Source of the DNA: a virus
Strand: one strand, 5' to 3'
Length of the DNA: 59,213 nt
Virus record (IMG/VR): IMGVR_UViG_3300047495_000062
Coordinates: 1 to 59,213 of that record
The translations under genes and the position numbers were made by a program. Each line of letters starts with the position of its first letter. Within the stretch, counting starts at the first letter, position 1. The notes beneath the pieces are model-generated. The model was given only the letters and a program-made list of their open reading frames with translations, was not told where the DNA came from and did not search any database. Positions 22,213 to 55,769 of the stretch are shown here, piece after piece.

Positions 22213-22896
22213 TTATCCGTCAGTTTTAGCCTGACGAACAAGATCAAAGAACTCCTGTCGAGCCGCTGGTACGTCTCTAAACACACCTCGTAGGCTAGAC
22301 GTCGAGGTGGTGACTCGAGGAGAGTTAACTCCTCTGCAAGCCATGCAGGTATGTTCTGCATGAATAGTGATCATAGTTCCTGCTGCGTCAGCAACATTCT
22401 GTAGGGCGTCCGCGGTAGACTCACAGACAACCTCCTGTAAGGTGGGTCGAGAAGTTCCCATGGCTTGCACCAGTCTGGTGAGCTTGGATAGGCCGACAAC
22501 CTTTCCTCGAGGAATGTATCCGACATTTGCTCTTCCCAATGCTGGTAGTAGGTGGTGTTCACAAACCATGCGGAATGGAATGTTTGCTTGCACCACCATA
22601 GAGTGGATGCCTCCCATGCTTGGAGCTACATCAAACAGTTCCCCGAGCACTTCAGCAGGATCACAAGGCTGATTGAACTCCACCAGGTACCTGATGAAGC
22701 GTTCAGGAGTATCAGCCATACCAGGAGGTAGGTCTTCGTAGCCATAAAGGGCCTTTATGACTCGCTGCATGTGGTCTGCCGCAGCCATATGGTCTGGCCG
22801 ATGAATCTTCTTGAACCTGGAACTGTAGACAGGCATCACAGTCTCAGGCTCTACTTCTCGGCTTGCTTGTCTTGGCATCCTTGGCAACCTTGCCAT
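22213..22896 (-). CDS. folE: GTP cyclohydrolase I
   Basis: 227 residues, full length for type I GTP cyclohydrolase. Zinc ligands are Cys112 and His115 in VCEHHLLP and Cys184 in HTCMACRG. Other family parts are MADTPERFIRYLVE, FRMVCEHHLLPALGRANVGYIPRGKVVGLSKL and QERL-like helix substitutes. It opens GTP to dihydroneopterin triphosphate, the first step of 7-deazaguanine synthesis. The start has a gggag site 8 bases upstream; queE ends two bases before the RBS. The C-terminus is about 40 residues longer than usual and rich in Ser/Thr/Arg. Confidence 0.94.
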   Translation of the reverse strand: MARLPRMPRQASREVEPETVMPVYSSRFKKIHRPDHMAAADHMQRVIKALYGYEDLPPGMADTPERFIRYLVEFNQPCDPAEVLGELFDVAPSMGGIHSMVVQANIPFRMVCEHHLLPALGRANVGYIPRGKVVGLSKLTRLVQAMGTSRPTLQEVVCESTADALQNVADAAGTMITIHAEHTCMACRGVNSPRVTTSTSSLRGVFRDVPAARQEFFDLVRQAKTDG

Positions 22897-22898
22897 TT

Positions 22899-23870
22899 CT
22901 ATACTCCCTTAGCATGTGACCAAGCTAGGACATGCAGTTGTGGAAAGAGGTGGACATCGAACAGATCAGGCATCTTGCAGACCTTCTCAGCTAGGTCTTT
23001 GAAGTCTTGGCATATGTTGTGTCTAATACCTGACTGAGAAAAGGCTGTCTCAGAATGCGGGTACCTTTCATCTTCTGGGGGTCTTGCTGTTCCCACAGAC
23101 AAGTAGAAGGGTATACCTGGGAACTTTCGATGTAAGCTGCGAGCGAACTCTAGGTCTTCATCGGTAAAGATGACAACCTTCAAACACTTCTGCTGCCAAG
23201 GGACAGCTGACAACATAATGGAACTAAGTATCTTTATGTCCAGTTTCTTATCCATCCCACTGCTAGGAGGTTTCGGTGAAACCGTTACACAGGAACAAAA
23301 GTTAAGCCACTCAGGGAAGAACTGGCCTTGGGTTTCGACCGCGATCTGGTAGTGAGCTTTTCCGAGCTCACCTACTAGTTCATTGAGGTCATGCATACAG
23401 GGATCACCCCCACTCAAGGTAACCCAAGGCCTTGAAGGTGCTCCAGGAGTCAGGTCTATGAGTGCCTGGACAATTTGTTGGGAGTTCATCTGCTTGGCAT
23501 TGGCCTTGATCTGGACAGGATCAACGGCATTCATGGAGTCGCACCAGGTGCACCTATACCCGCATCCACCAAGTCTGATGAAATGGGACACGGTTCCAGC
23601 CATCATCCCCTCACCTTGAATGGTGGGCCCAAAGAGTTCGACTACCGGAAACTTTTTGGCATTACGTACGAAGAACCCTTTAGGCTTGAGTGCTGCACGG
23701 GTAGCTTCCGACATATCATACTCTCTGGGCCCAGACATCAGTAGCTCCTGTAACCGCGATTGGCAAGCCTGTACTTTACAAACAGTACAGGCCCTAAAGC
23801 AAACAGGGTCTTTGTGGGACGCCTCCAGATGCCAAGACCCCAAGACATCGGAAAGATTGTGATACCCCAA
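22899..23870 (-). CDS. queE: 7-carboxy-7-deazaguanine synthase (radical SAM)
   Basis: The core shows GPTIQGEGMMAG, FIRLGGCGYRCTWCDS (Cys103, 107, 110, the radical SAM CX3CX2C cluster), VTLSGGDPC and VSPKPPSSG. It turns 6-carboxy-tetrahydropterin into 7-carboxy-7-deazaguanine. The start is uncertain. A TTG at 23870 gives 323 residues with an unusual Cys-rich 44-residue N-terminal piece (CFRACTVCKVQAC). An ATG at 23738 with a perfect aggag site gives 279 residues, closer to the family. I give the longer form because the gap would otherwise be 142 bases in a tightly packed operon and its content looks coding. Confidence 0.9.
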   Translation of the reverse strand: MGYHNLSDVLGSWHLEASHKDPVCFRACTVCKVQACQSRLQELLMSGPREYDMSEATRAALKPKGFFVRNAKKFPVVELFGPTIQGEGMMAGTVSHFIRLGGCGYRCTWCDSMNAVDPVQIKANAKQMNSQQIVQALIDLTPGAPSRPWVTLSGGDPCMHDLNELVGELGKAHYQIAVETQGQFFPEWLNFCSCVTVSPKPPSSGMDKKLDIKILSSIMLSAVPWQQKCLKVVIFTDEDLEFARSLHRKFPGIPFYLSVGTARPPEDERYPHSETAFSQSGIRHNICQDFKDLAEKVCKMPDLFDVHLFPQLHVLAWSHAKGV

Positions 23871-23880
23871 CCATGCAGCA

Positions 23881-24438
23881 TCACACTACTCCTCCGGCTC
23901 CGTGTATGCGTGGAAAGAATTCAGCCTTGCAGTTGGGTGTCTCCCAAACTTCGACACCCGCCAGCTGAGCTAGACCCTTTGAAGCCTGATTGACAGGCCC
24001 CTCCATGATCTCGAACCAGAAGCGGGCAAGGCATTCGGCTGTTGGGATGAAAGGTACTACCAGAAGTTTGGTCTGTGTACCTCTCACCCCTTGAACCCTG
24101 ATAGACTTCTTGCCGGTATCAAGCTGCTGCCTGATATGCTGCAAGTTGTCTGTCTTCAGAAGAGGCTCCAGCATCGGGTCATCTATGAACATGATCATGC
24201 CATGATCACAGGGCTCATCGATGAACGTCATCATGACGTCCTTAAGAAAGCCGAAGTCCAGACCCATGTCCGTCTGTTCCCCTGAAGTGTGGAGTTCAGA
24301 AGAGTAGCAGTGTGCCAAGATTCTGTACCTGTGCCCATGGAGGTTGGCACATTTGCTTCCATGGGTTGGGACTCGATGCCCTGCATCGATCCCGATTTCT
24401 CGGGTGACTGTGAAGACACCTTCTGCATGCCCCGCCAT
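23881..24438 (-). CDS. queD: 6-carboxytetrahydropterin synthase
   Basis: 185 residues from the ATG at 24438 (TAATG overlap with the queC stop). Zinc and catalytic residues are visible: His21 in IDAGHRV, Cys30, His34 and His36 in KCANLHGHRY. LDFGFLKDVM and CDHGMI complete the pattern. It converts dihydroneopterin triphosphate to 6-carboxy-tetrahydropterin. It is longer than most QueD proteins (about 120-140 residues), with extra segments around residues 100-130. An open frame extends upstream inside queC but has no coding character. Confidence 0.92.
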   Translation of the reverse strand: MAGHAEGVFTVTREIGIDAGHRVPTHGSKCANLHGHRYRILAHCYSSELHTSGEQTDMGLDFGFLKDVMMTFIDEPCDHGMIMFIDDPMLEPLLKTDNLQHIRQQLDTGKKSIRVQGVRGTQTKLLVVPFIPTAECLARFWFEIMEGPVNQASKGLAQLAGVEVWETPNCKAEFFPRIHGAGGVV

Positions 24439-25178
24439 TATGCCGCTTCCTTGGTGTTCGTGTACACCGTCGGATCGATGAGGTCTGCTTCGAGGAAACT
24501 GCCTTTCCTTGCTCGGCAGGTGGGGCAAGTCCCGCAATGTTGCATTCCCCCTGCATAGCAACTCCAAGTCTTCTCGTAGGGTACTCCCATATCCGTACCC
24601 AGGCGAACGATCTCGGACTTCAGGTTGTGGATGAAAGGCGTGATCAGTCGAACGCGGTGATAGGTGCCGATGTAGATTGCAGCCGCCATCGCCCCGACGA
24701 ATTCCGGTGTACAATCCGGATAAGCCCAGTTCTGGGCATCCTCAGCATGAGCACCAAACCAGATCTGGGCTTCTGCTGTCATGCCCGCAATCTTGCTCTT
24801 GGTGCGTGGGTACAAGGCATCCTGCTCCATGACCCAGCCCTGGGCGATGCCTGCGATACGACTCAGGAGGCTGCCATTCCGAAACGGAACGTATGTCGGT
24901 GAGATACCATGAGGCAGGTCAGCATAGCTGCTATCGGGGATCTTGGATTGATCATCCGTCAGCATGCTCTTCGGAGGCTGAGACATATTGATGATGATAC
25001 GGTCGACGCCGTAATGGTCAGCAAAGTCATCTGCGAAGTCTGCTTCGCGGATATGCCGTTGACCGTAATTGACCCCGACGCTCAGGACATTTTCTTTGCC
25101 CAGCTCTTTGACTGCCCGAGCCAGACAGGTGGAAGAATCGATCCCGCCACTATGGAGGATGAATGCACGAATACTCAT
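24438..25178 (-). CDS. queC: 7-cyano-7-deazaguanine (preQ0) synthase
   Basis: 246 residues. The N-terminal PP-loop is HSGGIDSSTCLA (residues 9-20); YGQRH follows; a zinc site is formed by Cys207, 215, 218 and 221 near the C-terminus. It makes preQ0 from 7-carboxy-7-deazaguanine, ATP and ammonia. No amidotransferase domain is fused, unlike the Gat-QueC of phages that carry dG+. This points to preQ0 itself as the inserted base. The ATG has a ggag site 8 bases upstream and the gene heads the queC-queD-queE-folE run. Confidence 0.94.
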   Translation of the reverse strand: MSIRAFILHSGGIDSSTCLARAVKELGKENVLSVGVNYGQRHIREADFADDFADHYGVDRIIINMSQPPKSMLTDDQSKIPDSSYADLPHGISPTYVPFRNGSLLSRIAGIAQGWVMEQDALYPRTKSKIAGMTAEAQIWFGAHAEDAQNWAYPDCTPEFVGAMAAAIYIGTYHRVRLITPFIHNLKSEIVRLGTDMGVPYEKTWSCYAGGMQHCGTCPTCRARKGSFLEADLIDPTVYTNTKEAA

Positions 25179-40895: not shown

Positions 40896-41801
40896 TTAAG
40901 CATCCTTGAGAGGCATGTTGAACAGCTTACATCCTATGGTATAGGCCTCAGAGAATTCCGAGAGGCCGTATTCGCCCCCATTGACCAGCCTCCGTGCCTC
41001 TGCAAGGTCACCCTTCATGAGGGCACGCTTCATTGCCGTATAGACACGACTGATATAGATAGCCAAGAGATCAGCAGCCATATCAATGGTATTAGCCAGC
41101 TCTGGGTTACTAACAATGTCTACCCCCAAAATATGTCCTTCTTCGGTGTAGTTGTTTAACCCCGTAAGTTGGATGAACCCAGAGCCTCGGTAGTTCGCCC
41201 CATCAGGAGCTCCTCTATTGCCGAGATCTTTCCGATTGTCATAGAGGTCGAAGTCGTGTAGTGCATGAGGGCTGGTGTTGTATCGGGAGACGAACTCCCT
41301 CGTAGGGATCCAACTCTCACACTCTGCCCGAATTGTTGCTAGGGCCGCTAGGACTGTACGTGTTTGGATGATGTCGTACTTCTGTAGACTGGCCAAGACA
41401 TAAGGCAGGTTGTTCGTAATCGATCTCACATGCGTATTGGGGAACATCTTGGCGACCATTGCCACAGTGATGTCAGGGAAGATGGTAGGTGCTACAGAGG
41501 CAGCAATCTCTGTAGGGCCTGCCCCAAGATCCTCCAACGTGATCTCGCCTGCTTTGCCGTCATCCAGAAGCCCTTGGCTGAGCTGGAAGTTCTTCAGAGC
41601 TGCTTCCGTACCAGGTCCAAAGCTGCCATCAGCATTGCCTGGATTGAATCCTGCTTGCTTCAGAGCATTCTGCAATTTGACTACTGCAGGACCACTCATA
41701 CCCTCTACCAGCATGGGAGGTAGAGCGGAATTTCGGGCGATCATGGAAACTTTGGGAGGAGTACCCTTACCACTGTTAGCTGTTGTCACTGGCGCTGTCA
41801 T
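40896..41801 (-). CDS. Endolysin: peptidoglycan-binding plus GH19-type glycosidase
   Basis: 301 residues. Residues ~35-95 form a peptidoglycan-binding domain 1 (VVKLQNALKQAGFNPG, then ADGSFGPGTEAALKNFQ). The second half fits glycoside hydrolase 19 lysozymes, with AECESWIPTREF giving the catalytic Glu candidate, then GANYRGSGFIQLTGLNNY. It has no signal peptide, so release should need a holin. It is expressed leftward with early genes rather than with the late + strand genes. The RBS is taggatgg. Confidence 0.88.
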   Translation of the reverse strand: MTAPVTTANSGKGTPPKVSMIARNSALPPMLVEGMSGPAVVKLQNALKQAGFNPGNADGSFGPGTEAALKNFQLSQGLLDDGKAGEITLEDLGAGPTEIAASVAPTIFPDITVAMVAKMFPNTHVRSITNNLPYVLASLQKYDIIQTRTVLAALATIRAECESWIPTREFVSRYNTSPHALHDFDLYDNRKDLGNRGAPDGANYRGSGFIQLTGLNNYTEEGHILGVDIVSNPELANTIDMAADLLAIYISRVYTAMKRALMKGDLAEARRLVNGGEYGLSEFSEAYTIGCKLFNMPLKDA

Positions 41802-51130: not shown

Positions 51131-51481
51131 TTTATGATCTTCCTGTTTATGAGATTCGAACCATTTCTCATCTCATGTTATTATATTACTTTACTATTGT
51201 TTCAGACTCACGTGTTATTTTCGCTTGTCTGCTACGCGTTATTCGAGTGTCACCCTTTTTGCTTATCTGCTCCTCTGTCATTCTATACCTACAGTATAGG
51301 TTATATTATGTCGGTCTACACGTGAACAATTCTCCGTACCTGGCGGACATCACCAAAAATCGGATTTTTGCAGGTTTCAAACCTTTCGGCATAGTTCCTT
51401 CTTAATCATGCTTAACAATTGTTAATTTGTCCCCATAAGTTTTTCCTTGACATCTTTTTGTACGTCCACTATAATATGTAC
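51131..51481. promoter_or_regulatory. Divergent control region, 351 bases
   Basis: Between the leftward helix-turn-helix gene and the rightward late genes. Contains a leftward TATAAT (51185-51180) without a clear -35, palindromes acctacagtataggt (51288-51302) and aaaaatcggattttt (about 51354-51368), and the late promoter with its TTAA box. No supported gene. Confidence 0.6.
51412..51475 (+). promoter_or_regulatory. Rightward late promoter, full consensus
   Basis: ttaacaattgttaa (51412-51425), TTGACA (51447-51452), exactly 17 bases, TATAAT (51470-51475). The expected start point is 51481-51483, on the ATG at 51482. Confidence 0.85.
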
Positions 51482-53059
<1,578 letters not shown>

Positions 53060-53075
53060 GAAAGGCACAAACACT

Positions 53076-53444
53076 ATGCGTTATTCAGCACTCGCGGTCA
53101 TGTTGACCCTTGCAGCCTGCGATCCAGCCACGCTCGCCAAGAACACCTCCACCTTCAACAGTGGAGTCTCCACTGCGACGGCAGACCTCCAGTCAGCGGT
53201 TGACTTCTACGGCTTTGCCAAAGGAGCGGCCGACCTCGTGGTCCTGGTCAAACCCCAGTATGCTGCGCCCGTTGCAGCAGTCGAAGCCAAACTCGATCCG
53301 CTGGTCGCACAAGCACAGACCTATATCACCAATGGCACGACCGACATTGCGGCGGCCGAGGCCTTGGTGACGGAGATCAATACCGACGCCAAGACGTTGC
53401 AGATGACGGTCGCCACCCAAGTCACTGTCACGCCGAACAAGTAA
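53076..53444 (+). CDS. Small lipoprotein
   Basis: 122 residues. Signal peptide with lipobox Leu-Ala-Ala-Cys (Cys15), so the mature protein is lipid-anchored. Mature part is helical, Ala/Thr/Val-rich. RBS is agaaagg. It lies directly before terL. An outer-membrane spanin or an entry-exclusion lipoprotein is possible; it is not Pro-rich like lambda Rz1. Confidence 0.78.
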   Translation: MRYSALAVMLTLAACDPATLAKNTSTFNSGVSTATADLQSAVDFYGFAKGAADLVVLVKPQYAAPVAAVEAKLDPLVAQAQTYITNGTTDIAAAEALVTEINTDAKTLQMTVATQVTVTPNK

Positions 53445-53450
53445 TGAGGA

Positions 53451-55769
53451 GTGTCAGCCGGTAATATCACAGACCGCACACGCGCTCTGAACTCGCTTGA
53501 AGGTTTCCAGGCTGCTCGTCAAGGGCAGCCTGGAACCGGGAAGGAGCGATCGACAGCTGACCATTTAGGTATCTATGACAGCTCCCACCATTCACATGAT
53601 CACCTCACCCAGGTTAAAGAGGCTGATGCCTTAGAGCAGCAGATCCAGTCTGTACTGCCTTACCTGACCGAAGCAGAGATGAATGAGCTTGACCTGCTGC
53701 TCGACAGCTGGACGCCTCCACCTTGGACGCCTCTGCCAGGCCCTCAGACGATGGCCCTTGAGAGTGATGCGGACATCATCTTTTACGGAGGAGCTGCGGG
53801 TGGTGGAAAGACAGATCTACTTCTTGGGGCCGCACTATGCCGTCATAGACGGAGCATTATTTTTAGACGGGAGTTTGCTCAGCTCAAAGGCGTTAGAGAG
53901 CGCGCAGAAGAAATCTACGGTGCTCTCGGAAGCTTTAATGGCCAGCTCGAACTCTGGCGCCTCAAGAAGCCACCATATTCCGACGTCCGGGTCGAGTTCG
54001 GAGCCTGCCAGTGGGCTGGAGACGAAAAGAAGTACCAAGGCCGACCACACGACCTCAAAGCCTTCGACGAGATCACCCACTTTACCGAGGCACAGTTTCG
54101 ATTCCTCATTACCTGGAATCGTACTACTACTGTTGGCCAGCGTGCTCGGGTTATTTGTGCTGGTAACCCTCCCACTGATGCTGAAGGTGACTGGGTCATC
54201 AAATTCTGGGCCCCCTGGCTCGATCCTCGTCATCCTAATTCAGCCAGACCGGGAGAACTTCGTTGGTTTGTTACGGATCCCCAGACAGGAGAAGATCTGG
54301 AGGTGCCCTCCGGAAGACCCCTATACCTGCTCAATGACGACGGAGAACAAGAACTAGTCCAACCGAAGTCCCGCACGTTTATCTTTGCCCGTGTGGAAGA
54401 CAATCCACATTTAATGTCATCCGGCTATAAGTCAGTACTACAGGCCCTCCCTGAGCCTCTGCGTTCACGCATGTTGAAGGGTAACTTCAACGTAGGAGCC
54501 GAAGACGCTGAATGGCAAGTAATCCCTACGGCCTGGATTTTAGCCGCTCAAATGAGGTGGGAGCCTTCTTATGCAGCCTTCTTGGCCCGTACGCATCACA
54601 CTAATCACCCTTCTGCTGGTGGTGATCTTCATGCTGTTCAAGGCTCTGCAGATCCTGAAGTCCAACAACATGCTGATGCTCAAGATGGTATCAGTCCTCC
54701 AGCAGGACGTGGTAGCCTTGACAGGGGCTCAGCAGGGACTGAAGATTTTCGGGGAAAAGTTTCTGGCCACTCTGATGCCGAAGGAAAAACCCCTCGCGGA
54801 AACCTTGCTGGATCAGTTTCCCCCAAAGGACAAACCCTCACCGAAACCGCCGCCACAATCCAAGCCCTGAGAGATGCGTCTTTCACTCCGCAAACCGCGC
54901 AGGCCTCCCCGGGCACAGGGTTCGATCTCAGCAAAGACATGTCTGATGATGAGGTTGCACGTCTGCCTGTTGAATTGCAGGTAGAGTATTATGAGCGCCG
55001 GTTGGGAGGTAGCGGCGGTATTGGGATCAATGGCCGCAGCGGCGTTGATCTCGCTACCATTCTGGGAGACGATCCCATTGCAAAAGATGTCAACACCTCT
55101 AACGAAATTGGTGCCCGTACAGCCGTTATCGGGGTTGACGTCTCCCGGGGAGGAAAAGACAAAGCAGTCTTTACCGAACGCAGAGGTAGATGGTTTGACA
55201 AGCAAACCGTTGTCCCTGGAAAGCAAGTTCCTGACGGCAATGCCATTATCCAAACGCTCATCAACCTAGGCCATCAGAAGAAACGTATACAGATCGACGT
55301 CGTCGGTGTAGGCAGTTCTCCTGTTGACTTGGGTCGTCTGTATGAGATGGAGATCATTGCCATGAATGGGGCTGAGTCCTCAGTGGCAAGGGACCGTAGT
55401 GGTAAATTAGGTTTTGCAAACCTCAGGGCTGAATACGCATGGAAGCTCCGTGAAGCCCTCGATCCAGAGTTGGGGGATAATCTGGCTCTTCCTCCGGATC
55501 CGGAGTTGGTCTCTGACCTCTCATCGTTACGCTGGGCGTTGTCTCGCAGAGGTATCCAAGTCGAAGATAAAGCCGCCATCAAAAAGCGTCTGATGCGTTC
55601 AACAGATAAAGGCGATAGCTTGATCAACGCACATGCTATACCGCATCAAGTTGGAGGCGCTTACCTGGATTACTATGCGGATCAAGTAGAGGAAGCAGTT
55701 GCTGCTATAGAGGCTGCTGGAGGTGACAAGCTCACCATAGAACAGCGCCAACAGGTGCACAATGCTTAA
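53451..55769 (+). CDS. terL: Terminase large subunit with a long inserted linker
   Basis: 772 residues from the GTG at 53451 (agga adjacent, so spacing is poor and the exact start is uncertain). Walker A GGAAGGGKT at residues 113-121, Walker B LKAFDE near 202-207, motor end GNFNVGAEDAEWQVIPTAW. Nuclease domain begins at about 555: VIGVDVSRGGKDKAV (Asp near 562), IQIDVVGVGSS, and a Gly-Asp-Ser-Leu-Ile-Asn segment. Between about 376 and 550 is a poorly conserved-looking hydrophilic linker, where most relatives have a short one. It drives DNA packaging. Confidence 0.9.
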   Translation: MSAGNITDRTRALNSLEGFQAARQGQPGTGKERSTADHLGIYDSSHHSHDHLTQVKEADALEQQIQSVLPYLTEAEMNELDLLLDSWTPPPWTPLPGPQTMALESDADIIFYGGAAGGGKTDLLLGAALCRHRRSIIFRREFAQLKGVRERAEEIYGALGSFNGQLELWRLKKPPYSDVRVEFGACQWAGDEKKYQGRPHDLKAFDEITHFTEAQFRFLITWNRTTTVGQRARVICAGNPPTDAEGDWVIKFWAPWLDPRHPNSARPGELRWFVTDPQTGEDLEVPSGRPLYLLNDDGEQELVQPKSRTFIFARVEDNPHLMSSGYKSVLQALPEPLRSRMLKGNFNVGAEDAEWQVIPTAWILAAQMRWEPSYAAFLARTHHTNHPSAGGDLHAVQGSADPEVQQHADAQDGISPPAGRGSLDRGSAGTEDFRGKVSGHSDAEGKTPRGNLAGSVSPKGQTLTETAATIQALRDASFTPQTAQASPGTGFDLSKDMSDDEVARLPVELQVEYYERRLGGSGGIGINGRSGVDLATILGDDPIAKDVNTSNEIGARTAVIGVDVSRGGKDKAVFTERRGRWFDKQTVVPGKQVPDGNAIIQTLINLGHQKKRIQIDVVGVGSSPVDLGRLYEMEIIAMNGAESSVARDRSGKLGFANLRAEYAWKLREALDPELGDNLALPPDPELVSDLSSLRWALSRRGIQVEDKAAIKKRLMRSTDKGDSLINAHAIPHQVGGAYLDYYADQVEEAVAAIEAAGGDKLTIEQRQQVHNA
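54571..54870 (+). CDS. Membrane protein nested in terL in another frame
   Basis: 99 residues in the +1 frame inside the extra linker of terL. The ATG has gtgggag 7 bases upstream. Residues ~8-27 are a strong membrane helix (RITLITLLLVVIFMLFKAL); then a helical part with VLQQDVVALTGAQQGLKIF; then a Lys/Pro tail (PPKDKPSPKPPPQSKP). The overlapped terL residues (about 374-473) read as unstructured Gly/Ser/His/Asp-rich text, as expected if this frame carries the selection. Could be an inner-membrane spanin or holin paired with the nearby lipoprotein. Function is inference. Confidence 0.62.
   Translation: MQPSWPVRITLITLLLVVIFMLFKALQILKSNNMLMLKMVSVLQQDVVALTGAQQGLKIFGEKFLATLMPKEKPLAETLLDQFPPKDKPSPKPPPQSKP

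Follow-up and report, generated by a model that had tools for sequence, protein, structure and literature searches.

The terL locus and an open frame nested in it

The stretch of DNA analysed here (59,213 nucleotides of the IMG/VR virus record IMGVR_UViG_3300047495_000062, hereafter the window) carries its terminase large subunit gene, terL, at 53451..55769 on the plus strand (772 codons). The assignment is based on PHROG 979 (E 1.4e-40) and on alignments: the protein has a Walker A motif (GGAAGGGKTD) and, on the nuclease side, the sequence GVDVSRGG, which aligns with annotated TerLs. The listed GTG start at 53451 is directly abutted by GAGGA, and a protein begun at 53679, the following in-frame start, would lack conserved residues. 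None of the TerL relatives examined exceeds about 58% identity to the window protein, and a PDB search with the TerL profile did not match any solved structure.

Several neighbouring genes are relevant to the interpretation of this locus. The likely terS gene (51419-53059, plus strand) is very long (546 codons) and contains (Gly-Ser)n repeats; no ORF of the window exceeds the codon z of 5.4 reached by a +1 ORF inside it (52593-53024), a value to which these repeats probably contribute. Between terS and terL there is only an orphan lipoprotein gene (53076..53444, plus strand) with the lipobox LAAC and Asp at position +2, which is the sole lipobox gene with an ATG start that was found in the window. 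A candidate endolysin gene (40896-41801), recognized by PG_binding_1 and a weak match to Glyco_hydro_19 (chitinase class), is located 12 kb from terL on the minus strand. Genes for 7-deazaguanine synthesis, encoding GTP cyclohydrolase I, QueE, a QueD-like PTPS and a QueC-like protein, were also found on the minus strand (22213-25178) and suggest deazaguanine modification of the phage DNA.

Within terL, a 99-codon ORF named P0002 runs from ATG to TGA in the +1 frame (54571..54870, plus strand). A Shine-Dalgarno-like GGGAG (54559..54563) is present 7 nt 5' of the ATG and overlaps the terL codons of RWxP, a motif that is conserved among relatives in the alignment. Thus, P0002 has the open alternative frame, the start and the ribosome site that are expected of a nested gene. 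DNA at 54592..54657 encodes a predicted membrane helix (residues about 8-29), with a maximal 19-residue Kyte-Doolittle mean of 2.62 in the N-terminal segment, and DNA at 54775..54867 encodes a Lys/Pro-rich tail (residues 69-99). In the single-sequence AlphaFold model, residues 5-68 form one helix, with pLDDT 95 at residues 11-20, and the tail is predicted to be unstructured. These results confirmed the original prediction of a 99-codon frame with a ribosome binding site, a strong membrane helix and a Lys/Pro-rich tail.

A sigma-70 scan upstream of the ORF detected no promoter. The 90-nt region at the start was weakly structured compared with shuffled sequences (z +2.6); however, equally weak structure occurs in 6% of terL windows and shorter windows at this start are ordinary, and accessibility of the start site was therefore set aside as support for P0002. 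No homologue of P0002 could be identified in Pfam, PHROGs, NCBIfam, phages, viral contigs (phages and viral contigs being searched by tblastn) or the records of 17 relatives, and a fold search found none either.

A long, variable linker shared by a clade of terminases

P0002 covers the first part of the segment joining the ATPase and nuclease domains of TerL, which extends from ...QMRW to GVDVSRGG (54564..55133). This linker comprises 190 residues in the window protein, as against 11-26 residues in the TerLs of isolated phages and most other relatives, so the additional residues noticed at the domain junction are real. For example, the large terminases of Bordetella phage BPP-1 and Acidovorax phage AP1 are homologous to the window protein in both the ATPase and the nuclease domain (matched parts 45-52% identical), and terminases of this kind have the short linker, whereas linkers of 87-251 residues were found in at least 17 relatives that represent the closest TerL clade. 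The individual lengths are 87 (L002), 93 (L017), 96 (L199), 106 (L192/L208), 118 (L014/L015), 123 (L196 and L202), 125 (L018), 127 (L009), 128 (L016), 135 (L193), 139 (L011), 142 (L012/L013), 144 (L010), 167 (L169/L197) and 251 (L207). Judging from these alignments, a long hypervariable linker is an inherited feature of this TerL clade, whether or not P0002 is a gene.

The long linkers align poorly with one another, except for RWxPxYxxYL at the start and, usually, GVDxSxLLTxxQRKLN near the end (L010, L011, L016-L018, L169, L192, L193, L196, L199, L202 and L207). The latter motif, of which the window TerL has a degenerate copy (GVDLATILGDD..., 55041..55094), is possibly a docking site. The window linker itself is probably disordered: an AlphaFold model built from the TerL alignment was poor (mean pLDDT 45) and had its lowest confidence at the linker, which weakly favours disorder.

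The question of whether the linker is unique to the window or common to its relatives was thus answered in favour of the latter, and P0002 did not share its distribution. In none of the 17 long-linker relatives is there, at the position of P0002, a complete +1 ORF from start to stop that includes a membrane helix, and conservation of the frame under purifying selection, which would be expected of a nested gene, was accordingly not observed. In these relatives the +1 frame is broken, as it should be if P0002 were not a gene, yet their linker sequence, which on the same expectation should have been kept, is likewise unconserved. Leu-rich +1 stretches do occur at the opposite end, in the DNA coding for GVDVSRGG, in L010, L018, L193, L196 and L202, and a 64-codon TTG-started +1 frame with a helix is present at that end in L009.

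Chance, codon usage and runs of T-ending codons

We evaluated P0002 against shuffled sequences in which the TerL protein was held fixed and synonymous codons were resampled or permuted. Of the synonymous shuffles, 18-22% had a +1 ORF of at least 99 codons within the linker, so the length of P0002 is unremarkable; longer +1 ORFs are present nearby, in terL (224 codons) and in terS (143 and 119 codons). When a hydropathy of at least 2.6 was required in addition to this length, the proportion dropped to 0.08% and 0.04% in gene-wide shuffles, compared with 0.6% in linker-only shuffles. Nested +1 ORFs that combine ATG, a Shine-Dalgarno sequence and an N-terminal helix number two in 1.24 Mb of related gene sequence, P0002 included, by criteria chosen after this ORF had been seen.

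The +1 codons of P0002 also resemble the phage's own usage, with z values of 4.7, 4.3, 4.0 and 3.1 under four nulls (about 4.2 gene-wide, and 3.1 when only the span of the ORF was permuted). Without the helix part, z remained at 3.35 against gene-wide shuffles and at 2.74 against shuffles within the linker. Calibration on 460 nested +1 ORFs of at least 80 codons from this and related sequences gave a mean z of 1.9 (sd 1.2), among which P0002 ranked 17th by z and 20th by score; 3.7% reach its z. Several higher-ranking ORFs are probably true genes lying within spurious longer frames, such as L005 6092-6550, which is annotated as Bbp23. Further +1 ORFs in this terL that are unlikely to be genes have z of 2.7-2.9, and the proven overprinted genes all fall below P0002 in the same test (phiX174 E, 2.05; T7 18.7, 2.53; lambda Rz1, 1.17). 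The score per codon of P0002 (0.139) is in the range of the clade's stand-alone small membrane ORFs. By this measure, P0002 looks no less gene-like than real cases, although the codon test separates real genes from background poorly. Dual coding would be consistent with its codon statistics.

The helix of P0002 coincides with an unusual run of terL codons, as 16 of the 22 codons at 54592..54657 end in T, compared with 30% over terL. Such runs lead to Leu-rich +1 stretches, and they are common in this clade: runs of at least 16 T-ending codons in 22 occur at 45 per Mb of gene sequence, versus 6.5 per Mb in other relatives, and five are located within the window's own genes. For this reason the helix of P0002 counts for less than it would elsewhere. 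A second run of terL (54114-54179, plus strand), in the conserved ATPase domain, contains WNRTTTVGQRARVICAGNPPTD, which reads as GIVLLLLASVLGLFVLVTLPLM in the +1 frame, and this Leu-rich stretch sits inside the 224-codon +1 ORF. Helices therefore arise readily in the +1 frame of this terL.

In the 594 kb of the clade we identified 15 nested +1 ORFs with a helix, only two of which have z above 4, P0002 and a 145-codon ORF of relative L198 named P0004 (L198:4502-4939, plus strand). P0004 starts with TTG behind GGAGGAGGG and has an N-terminal helix (hydropathy 3.13), a Pro/Arg-rich tail and a codon z of 4.1. Its host gene, an esterase-cellulase-like fusion within whose linker it lies, directly precedes the portal gene of L198. 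P0004 was considered as a homologue of P0002 and rejected, as no significant similarity was found.

Possible origins and roles of P0002

Four readings of P0002 were weighed, and the likelihood given to each is a judgement from the evidence, not a computed posterior. The reading that we favour, although by no means strongly, is that P0002 is an unselected open frame, an unproven candidate rather than an established gene. A long, fast-evolving and probably disordered linker would place little protein-structure constraint on its DNA, and the +1 frame over it would be open for 99 codons by happenstance. A local run of T-ending terL codons, rich in Gly, Ala, Ser and Asp, would then produce a Leu-rich helix in the +1 frame. 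The ORF would most likely exist without selection, although occasional translation is possible. The proportion of shuffles with an equally long ORF (18-22%), the rate of T-ending runs, the absence of the ORF from all 17 relatives, the lack of homologues and the z of 2.7-2.9 of other terL ORFs all favour an unselected frame, and we infer that P0002 lacks a function. It is opposed by the rarity of a long ORF with such a helix (0.04-0.6% of shuffles), the codon z (4.2 gene-wide, 3.1 within the ORF), the rank of 17 among 460, scores above those of proven genes and the ordered arrangement of ATG, Shine-Dalgarno-like sequence and helix.

A less probable but serious alternative is that a membrane gene arose de novo by overprinting, the +1 frame of a pre-existing linker having gained a start and a ribosome site. 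Its product would be a small single-pass protein, translated from a start site within the terL message, and might influence the timing of lysis or interfere with the envelope. The codon z with TerL held fixed, its persistence beyond the helix, its excess over phiX174 E, T7 18.7 and lambda Rz1, and the similarity of the score per codon to that of stand-alone membrane ORFs argue for such a gene, as does the presence of both ATG and GGGAG. The mechanism has also been described, since T at third codon positions becomes T at second positions in the +1 frame and +1 de novo proteins are enriched in hydrophobic residues (PMC8227390). P0004 is a comparable membrane ORF, likewise nested in the +1 frame, over the linker of another gene; that overprinting in the permissive linker of the packaging motor was independently repeated there is a tentative proposal, slightly less probable again. 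Against a de novo gene stand the lack of any P0002 homologue, the high background of T-ending runs in the clade and the generally raised codon z of open nested ORFs.

Known nested genes provide partial parallels. The nearest precedent is gene 19 (terL) of T7, which contains 19.2 and 19.3, annotated genes of 85 and 57 codons in the +1 frame, as is P0002. However, these have no strong membrane helix (maximal hydropathy 1.1), are hypothetical in the record and lie in a TerL of ordinary length, and no sequence similarity to P0002 is claimed. Gene E within D of phiX174 resembles P0002 in its +1 overlap, its size of about 90 codons and its single membrane helix, which arose where T-rich third positions of D became second positions of E (PMC8227390). 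P0002 had no match to E in the phage collection, which includes phiX174, or in Pfam, PHROGs and NCBIfam. E is proven and is the sole lysis protein of a small ssDNA phage, whereas P0002 is an ORF known from its sequence in a tailed dsDNA phage that has an endolysin candidate of its own.

Embedded two-component spanins, such as lambda Rz/Rz1 and T7 18.5/18.7, are likewise small envelope genes nested in the +1 frame (PMC6139136), and those of T7 immediately precede terL, as does the lipoprotein gene of the window. In this clade the terS-terL interval holds variable small genes, some of them envelope-related, including a lysozyme and a holin-like protein in L012 and a membrane protein and a peptidoglycan-binding lipoprotein in L016. 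Given these envelope genes and the T7 spanins and nested genes at the same place, a lysis-related role is conceivable. The original prediction went further and suggested that the two could form a spanin-like pair. P0002 would then be the inner-membrane and the lipoprotein the outer-membrane partner. This pairing fits the lipobox LAAC, the position of the only ATG-started lipobox gene, the envelope genes of L012 and L016 and the single-sequence model, in which the N-terminal helix runs on into a long helix. However, Asp at +2 retains lipoproteins in the inner membrane of E. coli through Lol avoidance (PMC5727369), and such retention is predicted here. In lambda and T7 the lipoprotein gene lies within the gene of its partner, whereas here the membrane ORF is nested in terL and the lipoprotein, with its Asp at +2, is separate. 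Neither protein had a homologue or a spanin family match in the databases searched, Pfam and PHROGs among them. The Asp at +2 and the distant, opposite-strand endolysin candidate argue against a compact pair, which we consider improbable.

Least probable of all is that a stand-alone membrane gene entered terL, which stayed open through it, as had been thought: the window linker does exceed most in length, but relatives without the ORF have long linkers too (that of L207 is the longest, so the linker does not need P0002), the P0002 start lies in sequence alignable to relatives (RWxPxYxxFL), and no stand-alone homologue was found in phages, viral contigs or the relatives' records, and we reject it.

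Taken together, the original observation is confirmed and its interpretation partly supported. If P0002 is untranslated, it is a warning that clustered T-ending codons readily yield membrane-like +1 ORFs, and that a helix and a ribosome site are too little to believe such ORFs in phages with T-ending runs. If it is translated, P0002 would clearly exemplify how a membrane gene can be born in the disordered linker of an enzyme essential for packaging. The linkers between domains of phage proteins might then be seen as nurseries of new envelope-active genes.
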